Below, one piece after another: positions 1,236 to 25,285 of a stretch of 64,000 nucleotides of DNA. How positions within the stretch are numbered: the first letter of the stretch is position 1; every line of letters begins with the position of its first letter. The position numbers were made by a program, and so were the translations under genes. The DNA lies in the NCBI RefSeq assembly GCF_021513275.1, contig NZ_CP090978.1, positions 4,030,001-4,094,000 of the forward strand, given 5' to 3'. The notes under the pieces were generated by a model, which did no database searches, was not told the origin of the DNA, and saw nothing but the letters and a program-made list of their open reading frames with translations. The stretch is from Paenibacillus hexagrammi. GTDB lineage: Bacteria > Bacillota > Bacilli > Paenibacillales > NBRC-103111.

Positions 1236-4200
1236 TTAGCTCAATATCTTCCTAGCCATAGCCGCTAGATCCTCGATATCGACCTTGCCGTCATTGTTCA
1301 AATCGGCATGTTTGTAGGCAGACCAGTTCGGGTCGGCGGAGTTTCTTCCGTATGCTGCGGCAACGATAGCTAAGTCACCAATGGAATAACGGCCGTCATC
1401 ATTCACATCGCCAGGCTGTGTTGTAATGACAGAATCCATAAAAGTCTGCAGAGCGACCGTCAATGCACTTACCGCCTGCTCTACTTGCTCCCGGGTTGCC
1501 GTAACATCATCAGCTACAGCTTTCGCTTGATCAATTGCTGCCAGCAGCAATGCTTTTGAGCCTGCCGGATACTGGCCTGTGCCGGTTCCCTCCGCAGCCA
1601 TATCATGCTTACTCTGAGCATTGGCGATTAATGCAAGCAGGGCGGTCTTGTCGATGACAACATTACTTAGTTGAACCGTGTAAGATTTGCCTTCTATTTC
1701 TGCCTCATGACCTGCTTCGTCGGCGATTAATGCTTGGGATAAAGATATCATTGAGAGAGCAGCTTGAGTATCGGATTTTACTTTCCAATGAAGCTTCAGA
1801 AGGCTGCCTTCAAGACGGGCGTTCTGTCCAACGGTAGCCACAAGGAACCGAATTTCACCTTGCTTTTGAGCCTTGTCAACAATGACTACCTCATCTGGAT
1901 TAACCGATTCTGCCGACACGAATTCCAGTTGACTCGGATCATAAGTAAATGTTAGGTCCTGAGCATAAATATTTTGATCCAGCCCGCTTAGGGTATAATC
2001 CAAATCAAAATCTGCTCCTTTAGAAGCCTCTGCAGGTCCTTGAAGAACGGCGCCAACTACCGGGGCCTTATAATCCTTAAGGAATCGGAACCAATTGAGA
2101 TCAAGGATCGAAGAAGCACTTTCGGTATTTACAAATTTCAAGTAAACATCGTGTATACCTGTAATGGATTGAGAAGGTGCCTGAATGGTCTCCCAATTAT
2201 TCCAAGATCCCGTACTTCCAAATTCCATTTCAACTGCCCGCTGGTCCTCCATGGAGTCTATCCAAACTTCCAGCTTACCGCCCTGTAGTCCACTAGCCAA
2301 ACGTGCTTCAAAACCGTTTACGCCACCTGTTCCAAAATCTACATCAGAAAATTTAACCCAATCTCCGTTTTCAATATGGTTGAGCTTATAACCACCGCTA
2401 TCATCACTGGATGCACCTACATCTACGCCTTGGCGTGTTGAAGCGGTCTCAGCTTCTATGGTTCCGTAAGCATCCGCTATTTTCGGAGCGTAATCAAATC
2501 TCACATAATCAAGATTGTAATTGCCTGGATTTGTGCTGCCCTCCACGTTGATTTTGAGCGTATTCGCGCCTGCATCTAGCTTTACATCCGATATGATGTA
2601 GTCGAACCAATCTCCGTTCTTGTTCGCGTCTCCCCAGGTAGGTGTTACCTTAAGGGCGAAATCAGTTACCTTAGCATTATTTAAGTACAAAGCGCCTTGA
2701 CGCGGAGTGGAATCATACTTGGGATCATTCTTTTTGCCGCTATTACTGCGCAGGATCAGATTGTAATTTCCGGCCTTCTGGATATCCACGGTAAATTGCA
2801 CGTAATTTCCAACGTTCTTGAATCCTTTTGCAAAACCTGTTCCTGTATAGCCTTTCCACTCCGTGTCAATGGTTACTCCCTTCATTGTGGCTTGCTCCAA
2901 TTCAAACTTATCACCAGAGTTTATCACAGGTCCTGCTGAGCCCTCTTCTCCAAGAGCCGGCTCCACAACGCCATCAGAATCAAGAGTGATCTCGATCTGC
3001 TCCCCGGTATCAGCAGTCTTCACGTAGACCACACCGCTTGCGGGGTCGACCCAGTAAGCCTCACTACTTGCATTAAAGTTCTCCAAGGAATCCACTGCCT
3101 GTATAGGTGCTTCGTTTACGGTAACCCCCCTTACATTGTTGATATGGTTAAATTTGAGATTGTAGGAGCGTTCAACTGGTTTAAATGCTGACACATTTGG
3201 AGTTACTCTTTTGTTTATTCTAAATGTAATATTGTTCCCAGCTTGGTGACTGTCGAATTTTGTTGTGCTGTATGCATTCTCCGTGATGTATTTTCTGGAT
3301 CGTCCGTCGTCCTCATATAACGTAAAGGAAGTATCAGCTTTTGGATAGATATCCAATGTTAGAGGATTTAAGGGCTTCTCGTCCGCGTAGTTCATGTCAG
3401 GGCCCATAGGTATGATGGCGCCTGATTTCACAAATACCGGTATATCCGTAAGTTTTGCATTGACATAAACGTCTCTTCCACTTTCTCCGCCTTCATACCT
3501 TTGCCCCGTATAATAGTTGTACCAGGTCGTTTTCGCAGGAAGCCATAATTTCACCATCGTATCGCTTTCTGAAAGAGCCGGAGCTACAAGGAACCAATCA
3601 CCGTAGTAGTAATGTCTGTTCAGATCCCAAGTTTTGGAATTGTTTTGATTCCCATCTTCTAAGAACATCGGTCTCATCATAGGTACGCCTTGGCTATAAC
3701 CCTGCCATGCCAAAGAATAGGTGTAGGGATATAAGGCATAACGTATTTTAAGATTCTTCTTAAGTGTATCCTGCGCTGTACTGCTGAATGTCCAAGGTTC
3801 GCGCCCGCCATGTCCATGTGCACGCATGATACCGTTCCAAGCACCGAATTCAGCTACCCATCTTGTGTAGAGATTGTCATTAGGTCTTTGCAAGAAGCCG
3901 CCAAGGTCATGTGATGTAGTCCAGTAACCAACAAGACCCGATTCAAGACCATAGCCGATCTGATATCCCATTTCTTCCGTCGTGTTCTGAATATCTCCTG
4001 ACCAAGCGGTAGCAAAGTGCTGCCCGGCATAGCTTCCTCTAGTGATGAACATAGGTCGGGATTCGTCCGTGTAATTTTTCCAGGCTTCATACACACTCTT
4101 GGTTGAAAGTGTCGGCATCCAGTTGTTATGAGTACTGCCCTCAGCAATATCAAATTCATCAGGCCAGAACCAGTCGCCGTATCCAGGCTTGATAACATTG

Positions 4201-5159
4201 TCCATATGAGCTTGGGTCCACTTTTCATTGACGGCAGGATTCAAAAACCGGCCACCCTGTGTAGCCGGGTCACTATCCTTGACCTTAGCCTCCGGCGTTC
4301 CTTTATTATTGTGAAGCCCTACCTCAAATCCCATTGAATCCGCCTTCGCAAACATGGAATCCAGGTCAGGGAAACGTGTAGGATCCCAACGGTGCGGACT
4401 CCATTTATCTCCCCGCCACCCGTAGTCAAATACATAGACATCACTAGGGTAAGAGCCCTGGCCGTCATACTTACCAGCGCCCCTCAGATGATCCAGCCAA
4501 TCTAAGAACTCGGCTTGCGTAGCATTATCATTGCCATACTTGGAGAGCATGAAGCCGTGGGCCCATTTACCGTAAAGCTCCATTCGGCCCGTCAGCTCCG
4601 CATACTGGTTGAGAATCGTTTTAAAGTCGGGGCCGTACATGAAGTAATAATCCAGATAATCCTTTGTCTCAAAGCCTCCGCCTCTTTTAAAAAACTTCGT
4701 GTTTTGATCAATTGTATTAAGAAATATACCGTAACCCACTGTACTCATATAGAAGGGCGCAATGAGCTGCCCATGGTCCATGCCAAAATCCGTCACATCC
4801 AAGTCATATTTGTTCAGCTGCTCGCTGTGTCCCTTCTCCCCTGTTCCGAAGCCAAAAATACCGCCGCCTCCAGGCCCCTCCACTTTCTTAACTCCTCTGA
4901 CACCGGTGCTTGCATCCCAATACATCCCCTGATCATCGGCGTCCTTGCTAAGCAAGGTGATGTTATCCTTCTTATACATCTGTACCCTTACAGGAGACTT
5001 TTGAACCCTGATCACCATATCTTTGGTTTCAATTTTGATATATGTCCCTTCGTCACTTACCGTTTTTTCAACATCAGCCCAGTCATTCTTTTGAACCATA
5101 TAATAGGTTTCATCCGGTTGACGGTAAGTACCGTCAACAGAAAGCTGAACTCTAGCCAT
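1236..5159 (-). CDS. Modular GH31 glycoside hydrolase with cohesin-dockerin tail (5' end disrupted)
   Basis: Glycoside hydrolase family 31 (alpha-xylosidase/alpha-glucosidase type; exact substrate unknown), 1307 aa from ATG 5159. The catalytic region covers about residues 1-600, with a candidate nucleophile Asp in WPDEFD (~334) and the acid Asp in AWSGD (~389). A C-terminal beta region follows, then a CBM35-like domain (~750-880), a CBM6-like domain (~885-1020), a cohesin-like domain (~1030-1162), a helical FIVAR-like spacer (~1163-1249) and a type I dockerin with two full calcium loops (DVNDDGRYSIGD and DLNNDGKVDIED). Codons upstream of 5159 stay open and encode a signal peptide, but an IS element cuts them from their start. 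The gene is therefore probably silent or makes a non-secreted protein. The context suggests a role in xylan or xyloglucan side-chain removal. Confidence 0.85.
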   Translation of the reverse strand: MARVQLSVDGTYRQPDETYYMVQKNDWADVEKTVSDEGTYIKIETKDMVIRVQKSPVRVQMYKKDNITLLSKDADDQGMYWDASTGVRGVKKVEGPGGGGIFGFGTGEKGHSEQLNKYDLDVTDFGMDHGQLIAPFYMSTVGYGIFLNTIDQNTKFFKRGGGFETKDYLDYYFMYGPDFKTILNQYAELTGRMELYGKWAHGFMLSKYGNDNATQAEFLDWLDHLRGAGKYDGQGSYPSDVYVFDYGWRGDKWSPHRWDPTRFPDLDSMFAKADSMGFEVGLHNNKGTPEAKVKDSDPATQGGRFLNPAVNEKWTQAHMDNVIKPGYGDWFWPDEFDIAEGSTHNNWMPTLSTKSVYEAWKNYTDESRPMFITRGSYAGQHFATAWSGDIQNTTEEMGYQIGYGLESGLVGYWTTSHDLGGFLQRPNDNLYTRWVAEFGAWNGIMRAHGHGGREPWTFSSTAQDTLKKNLKIRYALYPYTYSLAWQGYSQGVPMMRPMFLEDGNQNNSKTWDLNRHYYYGDWFLVAPALSESDTMVKLWLPAKTTWYNYYTGQRYEGGESGRDVYVNAKLTDIPVFVKSGAIIPMGPDMNYADEKPLNPLTLDIYPKADTSFTLYEDDGRSRKYITENAYSTTKFDSHQAGNNITFRINKRVTPNVSAFKPVERSYNLKFNHINNVRGVTVNEAPIQAVDSLENFNASSEAYWVDPASGVVYVKTADTGEQIEITLDSDGVVEPALGEEGSAGPVINSGDKFELEQATMKGVTIDTEWKGYTGTGFAKGFKNVGNYVQFTVDIQKAGNYNLILRSNSGKKNDPKYDSTPRQGALYLNNAKVTDFALKVTPTWGDANKNGDWFDYIISDVKLDAGANTLKINVEGSTNPGNYNLDYVRFDYAPKIADAYGTIEAETASTRQGVDVGASSDDSGGYKLNHIENGDWVKFSDVDFGTGGVNGFEARLASGLQGGKLEVWIDSMEDQRAVEMEFGSTGSWNNWETIQAPSQSITGIHDVYLKFVNTESASSILDLNWFRFLKDYKAPVVGAVLQGPAEASKGADFDLDYTLSGLDQNIYAQDLTFTYDPSQLEFVSAESVNPDEVVIVDKAQKQGEIRFLVATVGQNARLEGSLLKLHWKVKSDTQAALSMISLSQALIADEAGHEAEIEGKSYTVQLSNVVIDKTALLALIANAQSKHDMAAEGTGTGQYPAGSKALLLAAIDQAKAVADDVTATREQVEQAVSALTVALQTFMDSVITTQPGDVNDDGRYSIGDLAIVAAAYGRNSADPNWSAYKHADLNNDGKVDIEDLAAMARKILS

Positions 5160-5353
5160 TCTAGAGGTACAGAGCTCTATCTTTACTTCCTGATTTCCAG
5201 AGGAAATGGTAATGATGTTGCCTTCTACCTTATTTGAGGTATGATCTGAGATGTTGACCGTCTGCGCATATGCAGAAGGTCCTTTACCAATGATTGGAGC
5301 TAAAGTAATGACTATAGAGAATGTAAGTAATGCACATAGTAATTTTTTAAACC
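5160..5353 (-). pseudogene. Orphaned signal-peptide segment of GH31 gene
   Basis: In frame with the GH31 gene and with no stop, this stretch encodes a basic stretch plus hydrophobic core (FKKLLCALLTFSIVITLAP) and a cleavage-like site (AYAQ), then about 38 mature residues. It has no start codon and abuts the IS end at 5358. The probable original start lies beyond the IS (ATG at 9022-9020, behind GGGGGAAGAG). That start is in the same frame, but a TAA stands directly before the CATG target. Confidence 0.7.
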
Positions 5354-5359
5354 CATGAC

Positions 5360-5739: not shown

Positions 5740-5797
5740 GTCGGGTAAAGAATTGGCGCGGTGTCGTTTGCGACCCGTTTCCAGCCCCTCCCCATAA

Positions 5798-5830
5798 GAA
5801 CTGCTCGTGAGGTTTTCCCTCAAGCAGCTC
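5798..5830 (-). ncRNA. Group II intron domain V catalytic hairpin
   Basis: On the minus strand this 33-base hairpin begins GAGCTGCTTGAGG, has a GAAA-like loop and closes with ACCTCACGAGCAGTTC. This is the size and shape of domain V, including the conserved AGC triad in the 5' arm and the asymmetric bulge in the 3' arm. It lies about 55 bases upstream of the predicted 3' splice site, leaving room for domain VI. Confidence 0.82.
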
Positions 5831-5883
5831 ACCCAGTAAACTTCTTCAAAAGGGTTATGAGACCTATCAAATGGCGATCACTT

Positions 5884-7197
5884 TCATCGGTATCCTTCTA
5901 CGTTCTTGAGGGGATGGACTTTCCAATCCCAATATAGTCCCAATACACCGTAGAGGTACTCATTACTCCATCTTCGCCATCCGACACTACGCTTTCTTCT
6001 CCGTTTTCTTCTCGTCAGCAAGGTTCGTATTTTCATCTCCGTGTAGTCACGCACCTCGCTAAATGCATCACTCGAATTGCCAACCCGAAAATAATTCACC
6101 CATCCAGCTAATACGGCATTGATCCGTTTCACCATGTCTTTTGCCGGGGTTGCCCCGCCATTTTGGATTAGCTCGCGGATTCGCGCCTTGACTGCAATGC
6201 GTGCTTTCTTCTTCGGTGTCATGAGGATGAAGTATCCAGTTCCACTACGGTTTGGTACTCGCCTTAAGTCAAATCCAAGGAAAGCAAATGCCTCGCCTTT
6301 CAGGACGTTAACCATCCGAGTTTTCTCCAGATTTAGTTCTACACCCAACGGTTTCAGCTGTTCCTGAAGTCTTTTAAGAGCTAGTTCAGCCCACCCTTGT
6401 TTGCTGGAGTGTCCGCTTACGGTGATCACCATATCATCGGCAAATCGATGGTAATTGACCGCTTCGTAACTGCCTTCTGCCGTTTTACGCCGAATGGCAT
6501 CAAATGCCCAGTCTACCTCATTCAGGTAGATATTCGAAGCTAATGGAGAAAACGGCCCACCTTGGGGTACGCCGATCTTTCCCGCCGCTTTTATCACCTG
6601 TTTGATCAGGTGCATCACTTGTGGGTCTTGGATGCGCTTCGACATCTTCTCCAGTAGAATCGAGTGCCGGATTGTATCAAAGTATCGGGATAAATCGACA
6701 TCGATTACATTGGTCATGCGTCGCAGTACACTTCGTCTCACTTCGGCTAATGCTTGGTGAGGTGAGCGCTTCGGTCGAAATCCATACGAATTTGGGCAGA
6801 AGTCAGCTTCAAAGATCGCTTCGAGAATCAATTTTAGAGCACCTTGTACAACGCGATCCCGGATTACGGGAATTTGTAAAGTTCGCATTTTGCCGTTCGC
6901 CTTCGGTATATCTACCTTCCGGTTGGCTTGAGGTTGGTACGTTCCCGTTTGGAGTTCTTCTTGGATGCCTTCGAGAAACGGGATAACACCCTCTTTTTCC
7001 ACGTCTGCGAAGCTTTGTCCGTCTGTGCCTGCGGCACCGCCGTTTTTCTTCGCATGTCGGTACGCTTCATGGAGAGTCGTTATGCTGGTTATGTGGGTAA
7101 ATAGACCCCAGAACCGATGCGTAGGTTCAGACTTCGCCTTTTGATATATCCGTTGCCTCAGTTCCTGCAGACTGATGGGTGTTTTTGTCATTTTCAC
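5884..7197 (-). CDS. ltrA: Group II intron reverse transcriptase/maturase
   Basis: Intron-encoded protein, 437 aa, that helps splicing and copies the intron into DNA during mobility. Reverse transcriptase motifs are in order: PKANGKMRTLQIP (~98), SYGFRPKRSPHQA (~137), DVDLSRYFD (~166), GVPQGGPFSPLASN (~209) and the catalytic FADD (~252-255). The maturase X region follows, with a basic C-terminus (RRKRRRKRS). No HNH endonuclease domain is visible after the maturase domain. GTG 7197 follows AAAGGAGG at good spacing; ATG 7191 is an alternative. All catalytic residues are present, so the protein looks functional. Confidence 0.93.
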   Translation of the reverse strand: MKMTKTPISLQELRQRIYQKAKSEPTHRFWGLFTHITSITTLHEAYRHAKKNGGAAGTDGQSFADVEKEGVIPFLEGIQEELQTGTYQPQANRKVDIPKANGKMRTLQIPVIRDRVVQGALKLILEAIFEADFCPNSYGFRPKRSPHQALAEVRRSVLRRMTNVIDVDLSRYFDTIRHSILLEKMSKRIQDPQVMHLIKQVIKAAGKIGVPQGGPFSPLASNIYLNEVDWAFDAIRRKTAEGSYEAVNYHRFADDMVITVSGHSSKQGWAELALKRLQEQLKPLGVELNLEKTRMVNVLKGEAFAFLGFDLRRVPNRSGTGYFILMTPKKKARIAVKARIRELIQNGGATPAKDMVKRINAVLAGWVNYFRVGNSSDAFSEVRDYTEMKIRTLLTRRKRRRKRSVGWRRWSNEYLYGVLGLYWDWKVHPLKNVEGYR

Positions 7198-7710
7198 CCT
7201 TGCCTCCTTTGGTTATACGGATTTGTTTACCGGTCCGGACCCTTCCCTCCCCGCGCGTTTTGCTGCACGCGGATCTAAAGTACTACGGTCCGATCCGCCA
7301 CCCTGACATCTGCATGTCCCATTTCCCGATCACGGTTATAGGGAATGCCTCCTCGGTGAGCTTTCTTCACCGGATGCCGAGGGCTTCTCCAGTTTCCATA
7401 ACATCTTTCACTCCATGTCGCCGCTGATACCCCGCCGGTGAGAACTGCCGTTTCAGACTCTTTCGGTCAGTTCTTGCTGCTTTCGCGCGTTATCGACCGT
7501 CTCAGCCACCGGAATTGCGTGTAACGAGGCTACGTCTGCGTTCACTGTACGTTACAACCTGGAATTTTGCCCATGCTCCTTTTGAGCGTGATGTCAGAGG
7601 GCTTCACCGTCTCGCTTTCGCTCCACGGCGCCTCTCAGGCTACGGGAGTCTAGTCTTTTCTCCCGGTCGGACTTTCACCGACTAGATGTTGTGTCCTTAA
7701 CTGGACACGC

Positions 7711-8839: not shown

Positions 8840-9156
8840 TGGAATATCACCTATAATCTGTAAGATATACCTGTTCAAAAAGGTATCCTTCGCGATTATT
8901 GTGGTGTTTCTGAAAAGTCAAGTGGTTTTTATGAACTTAGGTAAAAATTATAATGAATTCTAAGCTTTTCCCATCAATTGGGGTGAACTGCATAGGTCAT
9001 GTTAAACCATATTAGCATCCATCTCTTCCCCCAATTGGTTAAATTTGGTTTATTAATGAAAATTCATTTCAGTCAAATCATATCTCAGCACGTTAACCCA
9101 GCCATCCATGGGATCGTCGACATTGACTTGTATCCGTTCCCATTACAAGTGAAAGA

Positions 9157-9248: not shown

Positions 9249-12200
9249 TTAAGATTCAAAAATTTTCATCGCTACTGCCGAAAGGTCTTCGATGTCAATC
9301 TTACCGTCTTTGTTCAAATCGCAGTTCACATAGCTGGACCAGTTCGGATCATCCGAGGTTTTGCCATAGGCTGCTGCAACGATCGCCAAGTCACCTACGG
9401 AGTAGCGTTCGTCACCGTTCACATCGCCAGGGTTTGTTGTAATGACTGAATCCATAAACGTTTGCAGGGCAGCGTTCAATGTGCTTAACGCCTGCTCAAC
9501 TTGCTCCTTGGTTGCAGATATCTCATCCGCTATCGCCTTCGCTTGATCAATAGCTGCCTGCAGTGTTGCTTTGGAGCCTGCTGGATATTGGCCAGAACCG
9601 GTTCCCTCGGCAGCCGCATCATGCTTGCTTTGGGCATTCGCAATTAATGCAAGCAGTGCTGTCTTGTCAATGACGACTTGGCTTAGCTGAACTGTGTAAG
9701 TTTTGCTTCCCAGGTCCTTCTCATGACCGGTTTCATCGGCAACGATTGCTTTGGATAATGAAATCGTAGAGACAGAAGCTTGGGTATCAGCTTTTACCTT
9801 CCAATGAAGCTTCAAAAGATTGCCGTCAAGACGGGCGTTTTGTCCAAGTGTTGCAACAATGAAACGGACTTCTCCTTGTGTTTGAGCCTTGTCGACGATC
9901 ACGACTTCATCCGGATACACGGATTCGGCCGATACATAGTCCAGTTGACTCGGATCGTAAGTAAATGTCAGATCTTGAGCGTAAACATTTTGTTCCACGC
10001 TTTCCAGCCCATAATTCAATTCGAAGGATTCGCCTTTAGCCGCTTGGTCAGGACCTTGAAGAATGACATCTTCAGGCCGTTCTACCGTAACCCAGTAAGT
10101 CTTCTGTGTGTTATCCAGTGCTGTGACCGTGACTGGAATACGAGTAGAACTTCCTGTTAAATCAACCTTTTGCGACACTCCCTCTACTCCATTGACAGTA
10201 ACCGTTGCGCCTGCATTAACGGAAGCAGCTGTTATCGTGACATCCTTAACATCTTTCGCTACCGCTACCTTATACTGGGTTACATCAGCTGAAAAGGCAG
10301 GACGAAGTGTTCCATTATCTAGGCTTAAGCTATTTACATCCACGTTGCTGGATGGCCAGGCAGGAGGTGTGTTTGAATCATTTGCAGTTAAGTAGATTCG
10401 GTCTATTGCGATACCGTCCTCTCTTCCCCACAGGTTCAAGTCATGCAATCCGGCACTGCTAATTGTCAGTTTACCTGCTTGGTTCCAATTATAAGAATTA
10501 CCTCTTGTAAATGTCGTGAATGCAGCCTTATACGTTGAATCCAAGCCAAATAGAATCGAATCACTGCCGGAGTCGGGAGCCTTAGCCAATATCCAGACAT
10601 TATAGTCGCCCGTTTGGCCAAAATTAATTTTATACGTTAGCTCTGGAGCATGTGCATTAAGCACTTCTGATGAGGGTGAAGCTACGTTCTCCCACTTACT
10701 TCCATCATCAGGTCCGAGTAACAGGGCTCCGTAGAATTTACCTACTGTCTTGTTCCAATTATCGTTATCACGTGCGGTGATAGTTGAATTCTCAGAATTA
10801 TGTGCAGCAATTTCCGCCTCAATCGCTACTTCTCCATTCTTCTCATGGAATACGCCGTCCGCCCAGTTATCCGGCCATAAGCTGCGATTTTGTTCATCCT
10901 GAATGCTAGATAGATTTTGAAAATACGTAACAAATGAATCTCTCCATGCTTTTGCATGATCTACTTGTTTATTAAATGTAGCGAGCACTTCATCATATCG
11001 TGCCTGGTCAATCTTCCCTTGCAGTGTCTTCCATGAATCAACCATTTGTGTGACTTTATGAAAGCCATCGAAATACGAATCATACAAGGATTGAATAAGT
11101 GTTTTTCCACTTTTAAGTTTGTACGAGAATGGAACGTGATGGAACCAGACTAAGAGCTCTTCAGGTGTGGTCTCCAGGTTATTATACATATCCGCCACTT
11201 CAGGGTAATACTGATCAACGGCACCGCTTCCTGTCTCACGGGTCCGGTCGTAACCCAAGCCATCTGCGCTAGCCCCGGAATAACTTGTTCGGCTTTCAGG
11301 CGATGGCGTATAGTGGTCGCTCGAAGAACTCATGATACCTAAACCAAAAGGAGAGGTATAGCTTTCGTAGGTGTCACGAGAATTCAAGAGAAGTGATGTT
11401 ATCGTACTCTTGACATTCGAATCATTACTGTAGGTCATTCCCGTCCATTCATCGGCGATGCTTAGAGCTGAAAGGTTCGGGTTCAGGCAAGGCGGCCATA
11501 ACCGTACCAATTCGCCTGACCAAGCGGCTGCCCCGTCCAGTTCGTACTTGCGCCAATATTGGACACACCTGCCACCATCGAGTGCTTATGGTTAAAAAGC
11601 GATCCATTGATCACCTTTTCAACAGTTGAGCCAGCCCCTAATGCCTTGGTATCAAAATTAAATACTTCTTTCCACATCGGAATCAACCAACACAGGTCAG
11701 TGGATTGACCCGTATATTCTTGCGTAATTTGGAGTTCAAGTCCTGTATTTGTATTTGGCATTCCACCAATGACTGGAATCAAAGGTTCTCTTATCTGAAA
11801 ATCTAGCGGTCCCTCTTTTGCCTGGAGAATTACATTGTCGGCAAATTGTCCGTCGAGCGGCTTGAACACTTCATACGCTTGTTTGGTTCGGTCAGAGGAG
11901 AGGCCGCTGACGCCATACACAAATGCTCTCCATATCACCATGCCGTTGTGCTCCTGCAAGATATCAGCCAACATATTAGCCCCTTGGGCATGAGTCCGAC
12001 CATATTTCAATGGTCCCGGCTGCCCCTCTGAATCGCCTTTTACGCTAAAACCTCCGAAATCAGGTATATAGCTGTAGATTTCATCGATCTTGCTGTGCCA
12101 CCACTGAATGACCTGAGGATCCATCGGATCAGCAGTGGATAATGCGCCCGAGAGAATAGGACTGTCAAATCTTATCGATAGATACACTCGAATTCCATAT

Positions 12201-12985
12201 TTACGAAGAACATCTGCTATTGCCGCTATCTTGGGGAGATTCTTCGAATCGATGAAATCATAGGAAGCATTCACATTATTCAGAACCGCTCCGTTGATTC
12301 CAATCGAAGCGTTAGCCCGTGCATAATCCTCATATCGAGGACTTACGGTTTCAGGAAGCTCACTCCAGTTCCAAATACTACTTCCGGCATATCCCCGCTC
12401 AATCGATCCGCTCCAATTATCCCAATGGTTAAGCATACGAAACTCATGGGCAGGCTTATCCGAGATATTCAGATTATCGATGGATTGGTAACGCTGGATA
12501 CGGCTTAATAATTGGTAAGTACCATAAAGTGCACCTTGGTCACTGGCGCTTGCAATCACAGTCACTGCATGACCCGACAATGTGGCAGAGCGGATCATAA
12601 AGCCATCGTGACCTAGTGTCTGAAGTTCTTCATCCCACCCCAAGCTGCTAATCAAAGGGGAATTTTGAAGGGCGCCTACCACAATCGCTCCATCCTGTGT
12701 GATTGAAGCCGATTCGGTGAGAGGCTGTCCAAGCAGACCCGAAAGTCCACGATTCAATTCTTTTCGAATGGAGCCCGAGATGTCCGTCGATCCTTCGACT
12801 ACATACTCTGTGACCTTTTGGCGGTATTTCGCTAATAGTGCAGCAACCGTAACTGAAGGATAGCGCAACCACAAATCATATCCATTCTCATCAGGTAATG
12901 TTGCCGCTCGTGCAGTTTTGTCAGGAATAACGAATGACATCAATATGAAAGAAATGATTAATAAAACTATGCCAGCTCTTTTCAT
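9249..12985 (-). pseudogene. Secreted GH67 alpha-glucuronidase with cohesin-dockerin tail, one frameshift
   Basis: Family GH67 removes (4-O-methyl)glucuronic acid from xylo-oligosaccharides. Two frames, 11483-12985 and 9249-11510, form one enzyme of about 1240 aa. They break near 11484, where TGGAAC of the conserved GRLAWNP motif reads TGAAC. A signal peptide ends near ARAA (residue ~28). Catalytic residues are present: Glu in DSEGQPG (~320), Asp in GPLDFQ (~395), Glu in IREP (~400). After the catalytic region come a CBM-like beta domain, a cadherin-like repeat, a cohesin-like domain, the FIVAR-like spacer and a dockerin; its first calcium loop has E in place of the usual G (DVNGDERYSVGD). 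A leader and exported modules are unusual for GH67, which is normally cytosolic. AAGGAG precedes ATG 12985; TTG 12988 is also possible. Confidence 0.88.
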
Positions 12986-13161
12986 CAAGTCAAAACTCCT
13001 TTTTTCTCCATCGTTATTAAACGCTTTCGCAGCCTAGTACCGAAAAGGGAACTCATAAAAATATGTGTAAAATCAACAAAATGTTACATTATGTATCATA
13101 AGGCGCGCACGCCACCCCCTTATTCATTATTTTACGGTAAGAGTCCCAATATGAACCCAAA

Positions 13162-13296: not shown

Positions 13297-13303
13297 CCTA
13301 GGC

Positions 13304-16300
13304 TTAGTCTCCCAGAATTAACCTTGCAACGACTGCCAAATCCATGATGTTGACAGCACCGTCCCCGTTAATATCCGCAAACTTAACTTCATTCCAGTTT
13401 TCATCACCTGCTCGGGCTCCATAGTACTTCACGATGATTGCCAAATCACCAATGGTTACCTTAGAATCGCCGTTCACATCGCTTGGTATGCCGATAATGA
13501 CAGAGTCAGTGAATGTTTGCAAAGCTTCGTTCAAGGCTGCCTCCGCTTGATCAACTTCAGACTGTGTCGCCGCTGTGTTGTCCTCGGTTGCCTTCGCACT
13601 GTTAATTGCCGCTTGAAGTACAGCTTTCGAACCAACTGGATATTGGCCTGCACGGTTGCCTTCTTCCGCCGATTGATATGTGCTTATAGCCTTCTCAATC
13701 GATGCATGTAAGGCCGTCTTATTCACGGCATTAATCCTTACATGATGAGTTATTCCCGTCAGCTGTGTTTCATTACCCGCTCCATTCGATATGACCGCAT
13801 TCGATAAAGCAACGGTTGTTTCTGACGATGCCTCAGCCTGCTTTGCTTTGAAATTCAGCTTAAGAAAATCTCCGTCAGTATGAACCTCATTGCCTTCTCC
13901 CAGACTTGCGGCGAGAATTCTGACTTCTCCATCCTGGCTAAGTTCACTTACGACCTCTAAATTCGACTGTAAGGATTCCGAAGAAACATATTCCACTTTA
14001 TTGGAATCATAGGATACGACTACATCTTGTGCAAATATGCCGTCTTTTACATGCCGCAATCCATAAGTAACACTGAACGGTTGACCCGCGGAAACTTGAT
14101 CCGTTCCGTCCCATGCAGCCCTTACTTCTGTTTCGGCTTCAACTAAGGCAGATACGGCTTGCTCCAGGCTTGCAACAGCAGCATCGACTTGAGATTGTGT
14201 GGTATAGCCCGCTTTTTCCTCGGAAATAGTTTGAATGAAGTTGCTTAAAGCTGTCCGAGATTCAGATGTGTAAGCTTCGTTGTCCAAGTATAATGCAGCT
14301 TCGGCAAGCTTCGAATCTAAGGTTTCAAGGTTTATAGCTGCTGTTCCTTCTTGGTAGACACGAACAAAGTCAACGTAACCAATGGCTAATGGATTGCTTC
14401 CGTTGTTGTCATCGCTATAAAATCTAAGCTTCCCAAGTGTTGTCAATGGATTGCGCATCGGTAAATCCTGCTGCTGCAGAACTCCGTTGACATAGGCTTG
14501 CACTTTCTGCGTACTAGAATCAAGGATAAGATCGATTGTATTCCATTCACCGATATTGAATTTTCCAACCTCAGCAGTACTCGTACTGTTACCGCCCTTA
14601 TTTGATACTTTAATGGAGCCGTTATCGCGCAGTGCTGCAGTGGCAATAATGGTTGTAGAGCTATCGTTTTTATAAATAAAAGGCGATCCATAGAAGTTTG
14701 TAGGAGCATCTGAACGCACTCTCGCCTCCATGTACACTTTCCCGCTCATCTCTGGAAACATCCTATTGGCTTCCACCGAAAGACCGCTGCCCTTTTGAGT
14801 TTGAGTGAGCTTCAGATACTTATTGCCGTTTTCACTTCCCAACGTAACTTTGCCGCCGGTCTCGATCGGTTTCCAGTCGCTTGAAAGGTCACCAAGTGAG
14901 TTCAGATTATCAAAGTTATCGTTAACGATATACCTTCTAAGCTTCAAGCCGTCTGCTGCAGCTTTTATTTTCTGCAAAATACCCTGTGCTGCTTCTTCTG
15001 ATCCTCCATTTGCAATTAGGTTATCGCCGTCGATGATTGCTTCCATTACGGGGCCGTAGCTGTCCGCCGTGTAGTTCTCTCCTGCAGATTTCTTGCAGCT
15101 GCGATTGCGTTTTGAAGTGCCGCCAAAGTTTCCTCTGTGGCCGGTTCATATACAAGGGTATAAACCTTTACATTGTCGATATACACCGAACCGGTTTTAC
15201 CCGCGTTGGAACCGTCATTATTTGTATAGAAGCTAAGGATATTCGCAGCAGTCATTGCAGCACGAAGCGGCAAATCGGTCCTTACCTTCACACCATCTAC
15301 GTAGAAGTCGCAAGTCTGCTTCTCGCTATCAAGCACAATCTTTAGGTTGTACCATGTGCCGCTTGTAAACTTGCCGACATCCGTGTTGTTAACTAAAAAC
15401 GTGCCATTATTGCGCATCGCATTACTGAACAGTTGGGTATCTTTATTCAAACCATAAATGTAAGGCATTCCAAAAAAGGTATCCGGCGCATCGGATCGCA
15501 CCTTCATTTCGAAGATCACTTGCCCGCTTGCTTCCGGGAATTGAGCAGTTAGTCCCGTTTCTCCGGCTGCGTTATTTTTCGTCATTTTTATATATTTATT
15601 AGTGCTTTCAGTCGGATCTGTTTCCAGGTTTATTGTACCTCCGTCCTGTACGACCTCCCATGAAGAAGTAAGGTCAACCGTAGAATCCGCTCCATTAAAA
15701 TCATCGTATAACAAGTACTTCTTATCTCCATCGACCATATTCCTTTTACTTTCAAGTGTGCTAGTCGCTAAAACAAGCACTTGATAACACTCTTGCTGAA
15801 TGGTCCAGCTCGGGCTGCCTTTCAATTTATCCAACACATCTGTATAAGTGGTCAAGAAGCTCGACATGGCATCAGATGGATAATTCAGGAACTTGGTTCC
15901 CACGACACCGGTAATCTTAATCCGCTCAGCTTTGGCAAGAGCTCCTTCAAGCATGCCTTGAAGATTGCCTAGTGAATCTACCTCGCGCATCGCACCGATC
16001 AGCCGGACGTATCCATCGTGCACGGTGTCCGCTTTCGGGTCATCCAGCGATGCCAGTACCTCATCCCGAACATTCTTTAAATACGCGATAGCATCCGGAA
16101 TATACGAGTCACCGCTCGTATCGTTTTGCAGTTCCGTGATTTTCGCTTCAACCGCTGGCAGATAGGCATCCAGAACCTCTCTGGACATACGCAATACCCT
16201 CGGTACGAAAACAGGATCAGCATTGTAAACCGAGTTATAGCTTTCTGGCGGACCTTGATTGGAAGGTTTTTCACCACCGGTATTAACCACGATCTTGTCA

Positions 16301-19227
16301 ATCGCCACACCTGCATCGATCATGTAAAGCTCGATTGTATGATGCCCTGTTGTAGGTATGTTGATGGTTACTAACATCTTTTCAATCGCATTGGTGACAT
16401 TTGTTTTCCATGTGCCTTCTTCCGCTGTGTCTTGACCCGACAACACGATTGGCGTGTTTCCATCCACTCCGATTGCAAATCGTTGTCCATCAGCGCCTAA
16501 AGTCGGTACACGGTAAACCGTCGTCGTAAAGCTTCCCGCAGTTTCAAAATTCACGTCATAGCTTAACTTAGGTGCATCACTCAGATTATGGATATAGCTT
16601 GGCGTATTCATCGGGTACGTTGCTACGGAGCCGCCTGAACGACCTAGACCCTCAAAGGTTTGGAAACCAATAGCTCCATCATTTTGTTTTCTCGCGTAGT
16701 GTTCAGCTTCGATGGAAACGTAACCGTCTTCTTCTGCATATCCGTCAATCTCTTCTCGGGAAAGTGCCGGATTGCTGGCATGAACCATAATGCTCTTTTC
16801 ACTTCCTGCACCAGTTACGGTAATGACCGCATTCTGCGTACCGGAAGGAACCTGACTCCAGTCAATGGACGCAAAAATACGGGTTTCATCAACAACGGTT
16901 CCGCTGGTTTTCGAGATTTTCACCCAAGGTTGATCGGCAGTTACTTGATAGCTGAATGACTCGCTGCCTTTGTTAAAGATGTCAATGAAATGGGTGTCTT
17001 TCAAATACGCCGAGAAGCTCAAAGAGCTGTCAGTCGTACTGTTCGTTTCACCTTCAACCACGACTCCCATTTTGGGGCCGTCCGGAACATTTACCCTCGT
17101 TACAGAAGGCATACCCGGTGCGTCAGGCCGCAATGGCGATGGATATGGATCCATGATCTTATTCCACTTTCCGCCGGACATCTGGGTATTATAATAAGCG
17201 GTTTCCTGTGTTTCTTTATCTTGCGCCCATTGCGCTAGGTCTGCATACAGATTAGCAGAAGCTGCTCTACCCTGATCCAGCGACAGCTTGTTCTTCTGGG
17301 CATAATAATACTTTAAGTTCATATAGAAGGAACCTTTGATCGGATAAGAAACAAGCTGGTAGAAGCTATCTTTCTGATCATCAGGGAGTGTTTGGTACAT
17401 CGCATCAGCCCGATTCATCAGGTTTTGATAATCGACTAGTCTCTGCTGAGACTCATCTCCGTAATCCACGGGATCGAATACGGCAGAGCTGGCATTGGTG
17501 TGCTCCGGCTTTCTCATATAGTTCAAACGATAATATTCCGTTAAGATGTTTCCAATCTCCTTGTTGTCGGCTCCCGGAAACATTTTCTCGCCAAATTGGG
17601 ACAGGTAACCGTTGTCTCCGCTCAGGTTATCCTTGTTCCATTTCTTGATATTCCATGCCATATCCAAGAAGAAATCCATCCCGATTTCGCTTGGCTTGAG
17701 ATCCCCCACGTTGAGAATCCAAAGCTGCTTGGCTCCACTTTCATAAGCTTTACCCATTTCACTCAGCATAAGCGCAGGAGGCGTAGAATTCAGCCAGATA
17801 TAGGTCATCGTTCCCACATAGGAGACATGGTAGTATACGCCGCTTCCGCCTGAACGAGCATTTTCCACCTCGGTTGGAAAACGCCGGATAAAACCATGGT
17901 TGTCCTCCGCCCATACAATCGTTGCGTTGTCAGGCAGCTTAAGTCCTGCTTCATACAGAGGCAGCACTTCTTTATAAGGAATGAAAATAGGGAAAGATTC
18001 GGAATTGACGTTGTTATCTTCCATCATTTTTGTCTGAGCGTCTACGATGTTCTGAAGCACATTTAGCTTTTGTGCAGTTGTAGTAGCTCCTGCCGTAACA
18101 AACCCTTTGTCATGAAGCCCTCGCATCCCAAGCGTATAGGACACCTCATGATCCTTATAGGCTTTTACGCTTTCATCCCAATATTTATTGATGAGCTCTG
18201 GGTTCTGCGTATAGTCGTAGGTCGCTGAGTTCGGATATTTATTAAGATTGTTCAGATCATCAATGGCCGTAACCGTACTAAGGTCAACACCTTGCAAATA
18301 TCCTTCATCTTGCAAAAATGGCCCCCATTCGCCGGTACCATTGCGCATCATCGGCTCACAGTGACTAGTACCGACAACAATGCCATAGTCATCGGCATTT
18401 TGACTGTTTTCAGGATACTTATTGAAATAATCGGTCGGTCCCAAACGGATCTCAGAATGCATGCCCGGCCAAATATAGTTGGCTTTTAGTCTAAGCAGCA
18501 GCTCAAATATTTTTTTATACGTTTCCGGTCCAATATTCCCGCCTTGTTTTCCTACAGGGTCATTGAGCGCCGCCCACTTTGCAAGATTTTCCTCATCATT
18601 GATAAATATCCCGCGATATTTTACGGAAGGCTCTCCCTCTTTTTTCAGCGTTTGCGTAATGATGACTTCGTTCTTCACCTGCGGAATCACGTCTGCCCAG
18701 TAATACCAGGGAGAAACGCCGATTTGTTCGGAGACGTCATAAATTCCGTAGACAGCACCGCGTTTGTCGCTGCCGGCAATCACCAATGCCTGGCTCACGC
18801 CTGGAACAGGATCATCTACGATTTTGATCAGATAGGATTCCCATTTTCCTGTAAGATCTTTCGCTTCATCTAGCTTCCCGTCCGCCATCAACTGTTTAAT
18901 GACATCGCTTTCATCAACAGAACCAATAATCATTGCATGCTGACTTAAAGCAGCAACATCATGCTTAATTTCGGGCGTTTTCGTTGTAACTGCATGTATG
19001 TCCTTCTGCAAATCACCTACAGCGCGTACAATTTGCTTATAATCCGAGTTCGATACGTATAAGTCCGCCGCGACACCATCTTTAAACACCGGAAATCCGG
19101 ATTCATTCTCTACTGCGGCTTCAGCACGCACATTCGTTAGGCTTACGGACGAAAAAACCATTAGAAATGCGATGAACAATACAACTATTTTCTTTAAAAA
19201 TGCTGAAAGTTTCCTATTTGTTATCAT
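13304..19227 (-). pseudogene. Secreted GH115 alpha-glucuronidase with double LamG-like modules and cohesin-dockerin tail, one frameshift
   Basis: Family GH115 removes (4-O-methyl)glucuronic acid from internal xylose units of polymeric xylan. The locus encodes about 1970 aa in two frames (15046-19227 and 13304-15046), broken near 15080, where one base appears missing before NYTADSYGP. Order: signal peptide (to ~RAEAA), GH115 N-terminal domain, catalytic barrel (GVSPWYYWADV, YRGIFINDEE, ANYIWPGMHSE), C-terminal GH115 domain (IEAEHYARK), two concanavalin/LamG-like domains separated by helical FIVAR-like segments, a cohesin-like domain, a further FIVAR-like spacer and a dockerin (loops DVNGDSKVTIGD and DINGDGAVNIMD). 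Start ATG 19227 has AAAGGA 8 bases upstream. Its tail is clearly more diverged than those of its three neighbours, and it alone carries two LamG-like domains. Confidence 0.87.
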
Positions 19228-19336
19228 CTGCATGTTCCTTTCAAAACGATGTCCATTGATCATTACTCACTGCCTCTTCTGGTACAAGGTCATTTGCCCA
19301 TGTTACATTTTGTATCCGAAAAGACGCAAGATAATA

Positions 19337-19358: not shown

Positions 19359-19413
19359 GTTTGTTGATCAAGTAGGGTCTGCAAGCTTCCATAGATTTTC
19401 TATCGACAGTCTC

Positions 19414-19431
19414 CGGGAGGTTCGCCTCCCG
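19414..19431 (-). terminator. Hairpin after second GH115 gene
   Basis: CGGGAGG-TTCG-CCTCCCG, a 7-bp GC-rich stem with a stable tetraloop, 41 bases beyond the stop at 19473. No T-tract follows, so it may act with the palindrome at 19337-19358 as a two-part terminator or protect the mRNA 3' end. Confidence 0.45.
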
Positions 19432-19472
19432 CTCTTTCCTGGTGAACGTTTACCAATTGGTACGTATATAAC

Positions 19473-22400
19473 CTAGTTCAGTATTTTTATGGCCATTGCA
19501 GCTAGATCCTCAATGTCAATCTTGCCATCGTTGTTCAAATCAGCGTTCATGTAGCTAGACCAGTTCGGATCGGCAGAGGTCTTGCCATAGGCTGCTGCAA
19601 CGATAGCCAAGTCACCTACAGAATAACGACCGTCACTGTTCACATCTCCAGGCTGGGTGGTAATGACGGAATCCATAAACGCTTGTAGTGCAGCCGTCAA
19701 TGCATTTACCGCCTGTTCTACTTGCTCCTGGGTTGCCGCAGTGTTATCCGCTACAGCTTTCGCTTGATCGATTGCTGCTTGCAGCGATGCTTTGGAGCCC
19801 GCCGGATACTGCCCTGCTCCAGTTCCTTCGGCAGCAGCATCATGCTTGCTTTGGGCATTAGCTATTAATGCAAGCAGTGCAGTCTTGTCAACGGCAACAT
19901 AGCTAAACTGAACCGTGTGAGATTTACCCACCAGCTCTTTTTCACGGCCTGCTTCATCGGCAATGAATGCTTTCGCTAATGTAATCGTAGAGGCCGAAGC
20001 TTGCGTATCGGCTTTTACTTTCCAATGAAGCTTCAGAAGGCTTCCGTCAAGTCGAGCGTTTTGTCCAAGTGTAGCTACAATGAAGCGAACTTGCCCTTGT
20101 GTTTGAGCCTTGTCGACGATAACGACTTCATCGGCATTCACGGATTCAGCCGAAACGAATTCCAACTGACTCGGATCATAAGTGAATGTCAGGTCTTGAG
20201 CATAAACATTTTGATCCATGCCGCTTAAGCCATACATCAAATCAAAATCTGATCCTTTGGAAGCTTCCTCCGGTCCTTCAATGACTACCTTATTACCACC
20301 AATCGTGTAGTTGAATGTCGCTACATCACTCGAATATACAGCCTCTCCCACCGTAGCATGTTTCACTGCAATCGCCTTGATTGTCATGGTTTCAGCTACA
20401 TCAATGGCTTCTGTATATTCCGTACTGGATACGGTCGGTATACTACCATCGGTTGTATAGTATATTTTTGCTCCTTCTGTTGCACTTGTAAGCGTAACCT
20501 CTTGCGCACTTGTGTAAGTTCCTGGTGCCGGGTCTGCAGTAGGCATTTCTACCTTGCTGCTGTTTGAGCCTTTTACCAAAACAGTTATTGGGGCTGTTTC
20601 TGCCCAGGAATTATCATTGTTTTTTGTAACTTTTATTGTTAGATTTACCTCTGCATCTTCCTTCTGAGGCGTAACAACTCCATCCGTAGAAATAATCTCA
20701 GGTTTACTTGAGTTTGTGATTTCCAATGTATATCCATCATATTCGGGAAGGACTACCTCATTGTCTTTGTACAGCAATGATGTCATGCCATGGGCAAATT
20801 CATCTGCAGTTGGCGCTGCATACACCTTCATGTCATCGACATCATAGATTCCGTCCACCTGCTTATCCAAACCAAACGAATAATAATTAAGTTGATCACC
20901 ATCTGGAATTCTGAATTTAAAGTCTTTAGCAACCAACTGATTATCAAAATAACCACTGTATGTCTTTTTTGCTGTATTTACAACAAACTTGACATTGTAC
21001 CACTTATTTTCTTCGAAGGTGCTAATCATTTTTTTGCTGCCGCCATCTTGCATCATGACATTCTTCTGGTTTTGATCATTATTTCTATCAAAACCTGCTG
21101 CAATCGCATACAAACCTGGAGCGGTAGAAATGTAAGCTAAATTCGTAAATCTTGCACTCTGAGGCATCCTTACTTTCAAATCAATGACAATCTCTTCTCC
21201 AGCGGCTCCAGCATCCCCAAATGGCAATTGAAGCAACGCTTGAGTTCCACTTATATTAGAAGAGGTAAAACGTACAAATCGGTTTCCATCCTCTTCGGCT
21301 ACAACAGCCTCCCCACCATTTGTAATACTTTGTACATTGAATCCAAAAGGTAATTTACCTAATTCATTTCTGTCAAAATCTTGATAAGCAACATATTGAA
21401 AAGGACCATCATCTAAGTTCTGACTGTTTCTTAATTGACGCTCTGCATCTGTTAGCTTTTCAATCGCGTTATCAATGGCTGGCATATCTTTACTGCCGCT
21501 TTCCTTTAGCTTTTTCAGTTCCTCTAGAGAAGAAAGCACCAGGTCATACTCAGCTTGCCCGTAACTGCCAAGCTCTGTTCCTAAAGGAACAGGTGCCTGC
21601 TCTAAACTTTCTTCAGCGGCCTGAATCGCTGTAGTTAATTTATTTTCATAAATACTGTCAGGGTTCTCAAACTCTCTTTCAGAGACAACCCAATTTGTAT
21701 CACTAGGAGGATTCTCTGATGTTTTAGTAATATAAATTCGATCTACAGAAATTCCATCTTCTCTCATCCAAATATTGAACGTATGCTCACCTGCACTAGG
21801 AACGCTAATCGTGCCGTTCTTTCTCGGCCACATCCACTTTTCATCTCTTTCATAGCTCCAAAGTTGAGATGAATCAAAGCTAGTTGCCTTATAAACTCCA
21901 TCAATGCCACCGTAAATGGAATCAGAAGCATCATCAATAATTCTCGTTCTCATCCATACATTATAGGTGCCTGGCGTGGTAAATTTGATCTTAAATTGCA
22001 TTTCAGGACTTTTACTTACCAAGTCACTTGCATCGCGCCAAATAGCGCCTTGGTCTGGCAGTCTCATGGCATAGCCTGTATCAGACTGCGTGATTCTCCA
22101 TGAATTCCCGCTTTTTGCTACTACCTTTGCATACTCACTATTTTCTATAGCCATTTCCGGTTCTATGAATACCTTTCCATCCTTTTCAAGAATAGCACCG
22201 CTTCCCCATGAAGCTGTTTCGTCTTTTTTGGTCTGTGCTACAGAAGTGTGAGGTAACAGTTCGTATCCGATACTAAATGTATCATTGTAGACACTGTTAT
22301 AGCTTTCATCAGGTCCATTGTCCGAATACAAAATACCCTTTCCATCCGTATAAATGACCATCTTATCAATCATGATATCATTATCAATCATCCACAGCTT

Positions 22401-25285
22401 TACAGTATGCTTACCTACCGTTGGAATATTAACATCGATCACATGCTTTTCAATATGACGGAAAAGATTAGGTACCCAGTCTGTACCTTGACCTTCGTCA
22501 ACTGCCTTACTGGATACGATGATTGGGTCCTCAGCATCGATGGAAACAGCAAATTTAATCGTTCCTGTCGAATCTAACGTCGGTACTCTGTAGATTTCCA
22601 TCGGGAAATTGCCTGCATGCTCAAACTGCACATCATATTCCAAAGAAGGCGCGGATTGCTGAATTTGATCTTCCGGAACTCTTGTCAGGGAAGGATTATA
22701 GGACCGCATCACATTGCCCTTTGTTCTTCCCAGATTGTAAATCTCCTGCCATTTTAAAGCTCCAGCATCATTCTTTCTGCTGTAATGCTCCGCTTCCATG
22801 GATACGTACCCATCCGCTTCCGCATAGCCTTTTACTTGCTCTAAACCTACAGATGTTTCATCAATGTTTACTGTAATGCTCTTTTCGGTTTCGCCGCTTT
22901 TCAACACGATTAAACCGCTTTCACCTTTGTGGCTGCTTAAATTATTTATGTTTACCCAAATTCGTTCTTCATCCATAATGGTTCCGCTTGTTTGGGAAAG
23001 TTGAATCCAATCCTTGTCCGTAGAAGCAGTCCACTCCAAGCTTTCTGCTCCCTTATTGAAAATCTCGATATATTTTCCACCTTGACCAAATTCGGAGAAC
23101 TCTAGAACTGAATGATCTTGAACCCTTTCTTCACCTTGTACGATTGCACCCATTTCAGGATCTCCTAACACTAATGCCGGTGACCCCTCTGGCCATTGAG
23201 AAATAACCGGTGGAGCGTGTGTCTCAGGGTCTAATATCCGATCCCATTTGCCTCCAGCTAATCCTTTGTTATAATAGGCGATTTCCTCTTTCTTCTTCTG
23301 GTCTGCATCCTGAGACAGCTTTAAAAAAGTATTTGCCGAAGAAAATCTGCCTTGATCATAGGCCATGTTACTTCGGTCGGCGTAATAGAATGCTTTATTT
23401 ACATAATAAGCCCAACGAATTTTACATAAGACTTGTTCATAAAAACCATCCCTCATCTGCTCAGGCAGGCTATTATACACGGCATTTGCCCGGTCAAAAA
23501 TCCCTTGATACTTCAACATTCTTTTACTTGCTTCATCGCCATAATGCAGTTGGTCAAACACATCAACCTTCATATGCTCGAGTCTGCGATTACTCGTTAG
23601 TTGATAGTAGGTGTTGACAATGTCTGTTACCTCATCTGCATACTGGCGTCCATATTGACTGCTAACCCAATCATGTAAGAATTGGTTAGGATTGTTCTCA
23701 TATTTATGAACGTCCCAGCCGTATTTAATAAAGAAATCCATTTCACCTTCCAAAGGCTTTAGATCTCCAACATTTAAAATCCAAGCTTTTTGAATCCCCG
23801 ACTCATAGGACTTCTGTAATTCTTCTGCCATTAAGGCTAGTGGAGTCGTACCTAGCCACACATAGCTTTGATCTGCCGGAGCCCAGTAGGAAACGTGGTA
23901 ATATAAGCCATTTCCTCCGCTTCTTTGTCTTTCTTCTTCATTTGGCAGCCTTCTCACGTAACCATGATTATCATCCACCCACATGATGGTTAGATCATCC
24001 GGAACCTCTAAACCTGCGTTATACAGAGGCAATACTTCCTTATAGGGAATAAACATCTTGAAAGCGTTCTGGTAGCCTTCTTCCCCCAAGACATCCTTCA
24101 TCATGCCCTGTTGATCTTTAATAATTTTGTCAAGCAAATTAACCTTTCTTTCTGTTTCAGTAGCACCAGGAAAGGTTCCATTATTAATGTTTGCAGTAGT
24201 AAATGGCTCGTCATGCGCACCTCTCATACCTAGCGTCCACTGAGATTCATATTTCATGTTTCTCGTAAGGCTGTCCTTCCAATATTGCAGTACGGCCTCC
24301 GGACTTACGGTATAGTCATATTTCACATCTGTATGGTGAATCGCATCATAATTTTGCTTCCACTCCGGCCATTCCATATTATTGTTCCTTAAAAACATTT
24401 CAGGGTGACTTGACCCCATCACAACACCGTATTCTTCAGCTAATCTTGCATTTTCAGGATTATTATTAAATCCGTTCACATGCATAGCAGGCCATAGGTA
24501 ATTTCCCTTTAGCCTCAAAATTAATTCAAATATATGCTTATAAGTGTCAGGTCCTATTGTTCCATCCTGTGTATGTGCTTTAGCCCACTCGTTAAGCTTT
24601 TCCTCATCATTCAGAAAAATCCCTCTGTACTGTACATCCGGTGAATCCGTAATTCTAGTGTCTGCCTTCATATATACGTTTTGTTTCTGTTGAATCGCAA
24701 CATCAGCAAAATAATACCATGGGGATACACCCATTTTTTCCGATATATCATAAAGTCCGAAAATCGTACCTCTTCGATCCGTACCGGCTACAACTAGTGC
24801 TTGATCAACTCCCTCGAATGGATGTTCAACAACATCAATGAGAAAGCCTTCCCATTTATAGCTTCCATCGCTTTTTTTAATTCCGATACTTCTAACTTAT
24901 GATTGCTTATTAGTGTGTCAATCGCTTCACTGCTGCCAATTGTACCAAATATGACTACATCGCCATTGTTTGGTATCGTATTTACTACTTGTGCATCAAC
25001 ATTTGTAACATTTTTAATATCATTTTTAAAATCATTAACAGCTCTTTTGACACTCACAGAATCATGATTATCCACATATAAGTTTGCTGCAGATTCATTT
25101 GCTACTAATGCAAAGTCATTCCCATTAGTTTCATTTGAAACATAACTGCCTTGATCACTTATCTGGTTCTGAGGTCCTTTTGCTTCTGCAGCGTTCGCTG
25201 TCACATCTGCAGCTCCGATACTTGTCTGTAAGATCATCGTGAACACAAATGCTAATGAGATCCATCGTTTTATTCGAATTTTCAT
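19473..25285 (-). pseudogene. Second secreted GH115 alpha-glucuronidase with cohesin-dockerin tail, one frameshift
   Basis: Paralogue of the neighbouring GH115, about 1935 aa. Frames 24794-25285 and 19473-24734 are split at an A7 run (24872-24878) where an eighth A restores LKKSDGSYKWEGFLIDVVEHP and links to GVSPWYYFADV. Order: signal peptide, GH115 N-terminal and catalytic domains (YRGIFLNDEEK, GNYLWPAMHV), GH115 C-terminal domain, a CBM-like domain (FKIKFTTPGTYNVWMR), a helical segment, a LamG-like domain, a bacterial Ig-like domain, a chitobiase C-terminal-like domain (KIYYTTDGSIP), cohesin-like domain, FIVAR-like spacer and dockerin (DVNSDGRYSVGD, DLNNDGKIDIED). Start ATG 25285 follows AGGAAGGG; ATGs further upstream lack a site. 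The tail is nearly identical to those of GH31 and GH67. A cre box upstream suggests glucose repression. Confidence 0.87.

Follow-up and report, generated by a model that had tools for sequence, protein, structure and literature searches.

Can extracellular enzymes be gathered into a complex when each of them carries both a cohesin and a dockerin? This question is raised by a 64,000-nucleotide window (i.e., the whole stretch analyzed, positions 4,030,001 to 4,094,000 of contig 1) from a Paenibacillus relative whose genome of 6.64 Mb is assembled as two contigs. Four of its genes, encoding a GH31, a GH67, and two GH115 proteins (GH115-a and GH115-b), lie on the minus strand between window positions 1,236 and 25,327, and each product ends in a cohesin, a FIVAR spacer, and a dockerin, in this order. 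An earlier note on this DNA had recognized this cassette and proposed that it could serve a small α-glucuronidase complex. On balance, we consider it probable that the enzymes form a wider, scaffoldin-free system in which they would link to each other head to tail and be rooted at cohesins fused to SLH (S-layer) repeats.

In Pfam searches, all four chains match Cohesin (E values of 1.7e-16 to 1.4e-13) and Dockerin_1 (4.8e-13 to 3.9e-06) above the family cut-offs. FIVAR exceeds its cut-off of 29.2 bits in one chain of the four, while a FIVAR model made here, seeded with 32 in-genome spacers including these four, matches all of them. The dockerins contain two calcium loops, as judged from the residues in the alignment, in agreement with their earlier assignment to type I, and the N-termini of the four enzymes resemble signal peptides by eye. 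In an AlphaFold2 model of the GH115-b tail (predicted template modeling score, pTM, 0.62; predicted local distance difference test, pLDDT, 92.8), the FIVAR spacer forms three helices at residues 134-204. The solved chains nearest to the modeled cohesin are themselves cohesins, which for this tail rules out the unrelated Ig-like fold that had been named beforehand as a reason to abandon the idea. On the basis of sequence and this one model, the closest relatives are the NagJ cohesin and the NagH FIVAR-dockerin of Clostridium perfringens, solved as one complex (2OZN). The precedent invoked in the earlier note, the X82 cohesin and FIVAR-dockerin modules of this organism, is thus borne out for both modules in sequence as well as in fold.

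The cassette extends far beyond the window. A whole-genome Pfam scan returns 48 dockerin and 53 cohesin matches, with 40 frames harboring both. With models built from these domains and applied to fetched regions, the number rises to 44. Two of the four additions are frames in which a module had been missed or is cut, and the other two are half of a split GH35 gene and a GH28-pectinesterase chain. At most four residues follow the dockerin in any of the 44. Among 45 cohesin-dockerin units, FIVAR separates the modules in 37; the other 8 have a short linker (4 to 16 residues). Since cohesin and dockerin share a chain, mostly as single copies, the dockerin could in principle latch onto the cohesin of its own chain. 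Such an intramolecular closure is very unlikely given these linkers and spacers, and the pTM and pLDDT values, albeit weak evidence, indicate no confident packing between domains.

A recognized catalytic domain is present in 27 of the 42 cassette frames scanned with Pfam (all except the L050 frame and the GH35 half). These domains are GH2, GH3, GH9, GH10, GH27, GH28 with pectinesterase, GH31, GH43, GH51-like, GH67, GH92, GH115, GH127, an MGH1-like GH, rhamnogalacturonate lyase, and GDSL esterase; GH35 with a cassette occurs as the split gene. The remaining frames contain lectin, carbohydrate-binding module (CBM), or Ig-like domains, or nothing recognized. Domains of at least 15 enzyme families therefore carry the tail, which rules out a complex dedicated to xylan or to α-glucuronidases. 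With much of the bacterial family having the tail as well, the novelty claimed for xylan debranching falls away. As a trait of the glucuronoxylan cluster, the cassette is indeed found on all four enzymes there, but it is spread genome-wide. The tail is not universal either, as the third GH115 of the genome and several of its 33 GH43 matches lie outside cassettes.

No frame in the host genome carries more than two cohesins according to Pfam and our own models, and no multi-cohesin scaffoldin was found, with the stretches between fetched regions covered by Pfam scans alone. A hidden scaffoldin thus did not turn up, and the absence of a classical one, as claimed earlier, stands. L055 encodes an enzyme-free protein of 535 residues with the arrangement cohesin-FIVAR-dockerin-cohesin-dockerin, and similar connectors adjoin anchor genes in relatives. 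The eight cohesin-only frames comprise six SLH-anchored proteins and two halves of frame-broken cassettes, and the five dockerin-only frames comprise two broken remnants and three proteins, each directly beside an SLH-cohesin gene. The latter three do not have the loop-1 motif and look like separate pairings with the adjoining SLH-cohesins, judging from sequence. In L039 (5864-11963) and L068 (5113-10091), separate pairs are seen: an Ig-like dockerin protein accompanies an SLH protein that bears one cohesin or two, and neither the cohesins nor the dockerins show the cassette signatures.

The SLH-borne cohesins provide candidate roots. Their profile matches in 25 of 30 genomes, and they are present in 25 of the 26 genomes with a strong cassette and in none of the four without. 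All 40 SLH-cohesin genes from 22 genomes of relatives, fetched irrespective of cassettes, match the SLH model and have a same-strand dockerin frame within 600 bases, as measured between stop-to-stop frames. These 40 derive from the best 47 profile matches after one own-genome row and six lying less than 7 kb from a contig start were dropped; one further row near a contig start was kept. The dockerin neighbor is upstream in 34 cases and downstream in 15, some genes having both, and the 49 neighbors fall into 21 groups (35% identity, N-terminal parts). As a control, SLH genes without a cohesin adjoin a dockerin in 0 of 20 cases among the matches listed; a contig end cuts short six of these control regions, and L200, L205, and L219 include no sequence upstream of the gene. 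In named loci, an SLH-cohesin gene lies just downstream of the cassette in 12 of 16 cases, a biased count because the loci were fetched by their cassettes.

The order cassette enzyme, cohesin-SLH, and enzyme-free cassette protein recurs in L163, L164, and L090. In L064 (5810-12788), a GH28-pectinesterase chain is encoded directly upstream of a cohesin-SLH gene, and its dockerin has no first calcium loop and scores below the Pfam cut-off.

The consistent adjacency of anchor and dockerin genes would also suit docking at the surface alone. Here the dockerin would bind the SLH-cohesins, and the cassette cohesin would have another or weaker role or recruit dockerin proteins of other microbes. Five SLH anchors and such scavenging are discussed for Paenibacillus guangzhouensis in the available passages of PMC11557425. 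Surface docking is nevertheless unlikely, though it deserves attention: the cassette cohesin retains D30 and R66 in all 33 in-genome tails, it is the form nearest to the NagJ cohesin that was solved with a FIVAR-dockerin, and the genome encodes few dockerins besides those of cassettes.

Head-to-tail linking on SLH roots is the reading that best accounts for the gene counts, the gene neighborhood, the fold kinship, and the cohesin conservation. What is observed are the modules themselves, the presence of both on one chain, the SLH-cohesins, and the proximity of the latter to dockerin genes in relatives. Each chain would offer one socket, an X82-type cohesin, and a terminal hook, the dockerin; in most chains, a three-helix FIVAR spacer separates the two. 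Chains would form when the hook of one enzyme enters the socket of another, and branching would be possible through enzyme-free connectors, which have two of each. The root would be a hook held by a cohesin fused to wall-gripping SLH repeats.

Conservation on the cohesin side is consistent with a working socket. Positions 30, 66, and 112 are unchanged across the 33 in-genome tails, which are diverse elsewhere; the whole-tail alignment is too diverse for a pattern scan. This invariance and the linkage with SLH-cohesin genes make it highly improbable that the tail is a passive appendage copied along with genes, as the sheer number of cassettes might otherwise suggest. On the dockerin side, the loop-1 motif is common to 44 of the 45 in-genome cassette dockerins. 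The contrast at position 11, constant in repeat 1 but variable in repeat 2, speaks against a dockerin whose two faces are equivalent; the alanine at position 17 in nearly all rows of both repeats makes this rejection tentative.

Several points weigh against the proposed linking. Alanine at position 17 occurs in nearly all rows, and repeat 1 is about as variable as repeat 2 at position 18 (in-genome set) and at position 15 (anchor-region set), such that conservation picks out no single dockerin face cleanly. In the 98 named tails, dockerin conservation is partly built in, because the loci were found with patterns including the repeat-1 motif as well as the FIVAR motif; the 102-tail set, likewise fetched in part through the repeat-1 motif, is compromised as evidence for a face. 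After a recount on sets not chosen by motif (the 33 in-genome tails and 52 distinct anchor-region dockerins), the argument for one face is weaker. Furthermore, about 15 of the 42 scanned chains have no recognized catalytic domain, the adjacency cases are not independent because many genomes are close relatives, and L046, one of two anchor-type genes of the host, has no dockerin match nearby in Pfam. One single chain was folded, and we infer all binding, the chain length, and the acceptance of the same dockerins by anchor-type cohesins. The C. perfringens enzymes are presented as pairing rather than chaining in the available passages of PMC12997984, and a 2010 survey of Paenibacillus sp. JDR-2 (PMC2838879, as far as the accessible text goes) lists four SLH proteins and no dockerin.

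The most serious of these points concerns the anchors. A carefully built tree of 69 cohesins (all 23 SLH rows and 46 of 160 cassette rows; bootstrap not settled) places 17 of the 23 SLH cohesins in one clade with a support of 97/98, and a larger, quick tree also separates the cassette and anchor types. The anchor-type cohesins are only weakly similar to type II cohesins and differ at the presumed binding face; the 23 SLH cohesins have glutamate at position 30 in 18 cases and, at position 66, glutamine in 10 and arginine in 4. Anchor-type cohesins may need another dockerin, and a dockerin shared by both types would be the weakest link of the model. Two SLH cohesins, that of L139 and that of L045 (the latter on a long branch), group with cassette cohesins, as if SLH repeats had taken the place of the dockerin. 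L045 (4108-8636) encodes a GH53 galactanase in which a cohesin and SLH repeats replace the dockerin, followed by a Big_4-dockerin protein.

The two cohesin classes invite a reading in which the cohesin and the dockerin of one chain differ in specificity and impose a fixed joining order. The "monovalent adaptor" class in the available part of PMC11557425 and some variation at position 11 of the anchor-region dockerins (Gly in 42, Val in 5, and Ser in 3 of 52) agree with such type-switching adaptors. They are rather improbable, as the loop-1 motif recurs in nearly all cassette dockerins of the genome and the dockerins encoded just upstream of anchor genes resemble the others by eye.

Among the matches listed, the cassette profile is found in 28 of 30 genomes of the genus (E value of 1e-10, own genome included) and in 60 of 104 genomes and 10 of 22 genera of the family (1e-30). 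The profile overcounts cassettes, listing 69 matches in the own genome versus 44 frames. The two relatives richest in Dockerin_1 have at least 80 and at least 101 matches. In a phylum sample of 398 genomes (1e-20; at most the best six candidates scored per genome and seemingly no other family member included), the matches listed give a full match in the own genome of the window only and partial ones in two others. Of 75 named loci, 73 bear the name Paenibacillus in their title; the other two are labeled as a Bacillus sp. and as a Clostridiaceae metagenome-assembled genome. Cohesin and dockerin counts across the 30 genomes correlate (Spearman 0.966, among the matches listed), which carries little weight because the two modules share a chain and the counts for two of the genomes are lower bounds. 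A bolder and distinctly tentative extension is that much of one family possesses extracellular enzyme machinery of a third type, devoid of a scaffoldin. It would consist of up to about 100 chains serving as both link and tool, whose promiscuous dockerin would fit X82-type enzyme sockets as well as type II-like S-layer sockets, with connectors yielding a branched, calcium-dependent, cell-rooted mesh.

Known systems share parts of this arrangement. Like the classical cellulosome, the host places dockerins on enzymes and has SLH-cohesin anchors (six proteins), but unlike it, cohesins reside on the enzymes themselves and no scaffoldin with several cohesins was found. In C. perfringens, enzyme binds enzyme without a scaffoldin, as may also be the case here by analogy, and the modules lie mostly on different enzymes: the available passages of PMC12997984 describe five cohesin proteins, five dockerin proteins, and one GH31 chain with both, together with an Akkermansia GH31 bearing both. 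In contrast, the two modules coexist on nearly every chain here (44 frames), and SLH roots are added. Paenibacillus curdlanolyticus B-6 likewise has an extracellular hemicellulase complex, which is seen there and proposed here; unlike in the host, its S1 protein is reported to be without cohesin and dockerin (PMC6823336, accessible part).

The closest parallel is P. guangzhouensis, which, according to the available passages of a 2024 survey (PMC11557425), encodes 28 chains that each combine a single dockerin with a single cohesin, a GH domain being present on many of them, as well as five SLH-cohesin anchors, and has nearly all of its dockerins on cohesin chains. The host similarly has its dockerins mostly on cohesin-bearing chains and possesses SLH-cohesins. 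The survey, whose rule is a multi-cohesin protein, terms the system architecturally distinct and the genome "scaffoldin-containing," and considers docking to the SLH anchors, overlooked dockerins, or scavenging. The terms "head-to-tail," "daisy," and "self-assembl" are absent from its text. The architecture itself is therefore partly in print, with chaining not proposed in the passages available, while the FIVAR spacer, the C. perfringens kinship, the family-wide spread, the gene neighborhood, the connectors, and the chaining model are new relative to it. No published proposal of chains or networks of cohesin- and dockerin-bearing enzymes was found in the titles, abstracts, and passages of the open-licence literature. 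The interpretation in the earlier note keeps its domains, precedent, and lack of a scaffoldin, but it was too narrow and did not contain the SLH-anchored cohesins, the enzyme-free connectors, or the published P. guangzhouensis case.

If head-to-tail linking holds, enzymes could cluster without a scaffoldin. Composition would then depend on nothing but expression levels, and acquiring a tail of about 270 residues would be enough for a new enzyme to join. Such linking may account for the fact that multi-cohesin rules such as that of PMC11557425 scarcely register these bacteria, and it offers a possible answer to the puzzle, noted there, of dockerins confined almost entirely to chains with a cohesin. 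For enzyme mixtures that assemble by themselves, it further suggests a format needing one gene per enzyme.

Table 1. Cassette-bearing enzymes of the window and their modules (window positions).
Feature	Position	Strand	Remark
GH31 chain (CBM35, CBM6, then cohesin-FIVAR-dockerin)	1236..5159	-	Open frame extends to 5387, with a signal-peptide-like stretch there
GH31 cohesin	1686..2033	-	Pfam PF00963
GH31 FIVAR spacer	1446..1652	-	24.6 bits, below Pfam cut-off
GH31 type I dockerin	1242..1415	-	Pfam Dockerin_1
GH67 α-glucuronidase, N-terminal and middle part	11483..12988	-	Frame break at end
GH67 C-terminal part, cadherin-like domain, cohesin-FIVAR-dockerin	9249..11510	-	Different frame from 11483..12988
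GH67 cohesin	9693..10055	-	Pfam
GH67 FIVAR spacer	9462..9668	-	28.9 bits, slightly below cut-off
GH67 dockerin	9264..9431	-	Pfam
GH115-a catalytic part	15046..19263	-	Frame break near 15046
GH115-a C-terminal part, lectin-like region and cohesin-FIVAR-dockerin	13304..15046	-	Pfam
GH115-a cohesin	13751..14104	-	Pfam
GH115-a FIVAR spacer	13514..13720	-	24.6 bits, below cut-off
GH115-a dockerin	13313..13483	-	Best Dockerin_1 match of the genome
GH115-b N-terminal piece	24794..25327	-	Signal-peptide-like start, without Pfam family; frame break before 19473..24734
GH115-b catalytic part, CHB_HEX_C_1 / Fn3-associated domain, cohesin-FIVAR-dockerin	19473..24734	-	Pfam
GH115-b cohesin	19914..20291	-	D30 and R66 present (tail numbering)
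GH115-b FIVAR three-helix spacer	19680..19889	-	30.7 bits, above cut-off
GH115-b dockerin	19488..19652	-	VGDLA in loop 1

Three of the four cassette genes (GH67, GH115-a, and GH115-b) are frame-broken in the assembly. Assembly errors are the likely cause, because the unrelated MATE (26222-27597) and GGDEF-EAL (45328-47132) genes of the window are split into two frames as well. These splits, together with an acyl transferase open reading frame (ORF; 53402-54022) that spans just part of its family, suggest many base errors in the assembly. Between the GH31 and GH67 genes, the region 5740-8878 contains a group II intron (reverse transcriptase ORF at 5884-7197, with intron domains matched by Rfam at 7547-7684 and 5740-5832) and, directly before it, a DDE transposase ORF (7697-8878). 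The ORF at 47802-49280 presents an odd pairing of three SLH repeats with a C-terminal match to sigma-70 region 4.

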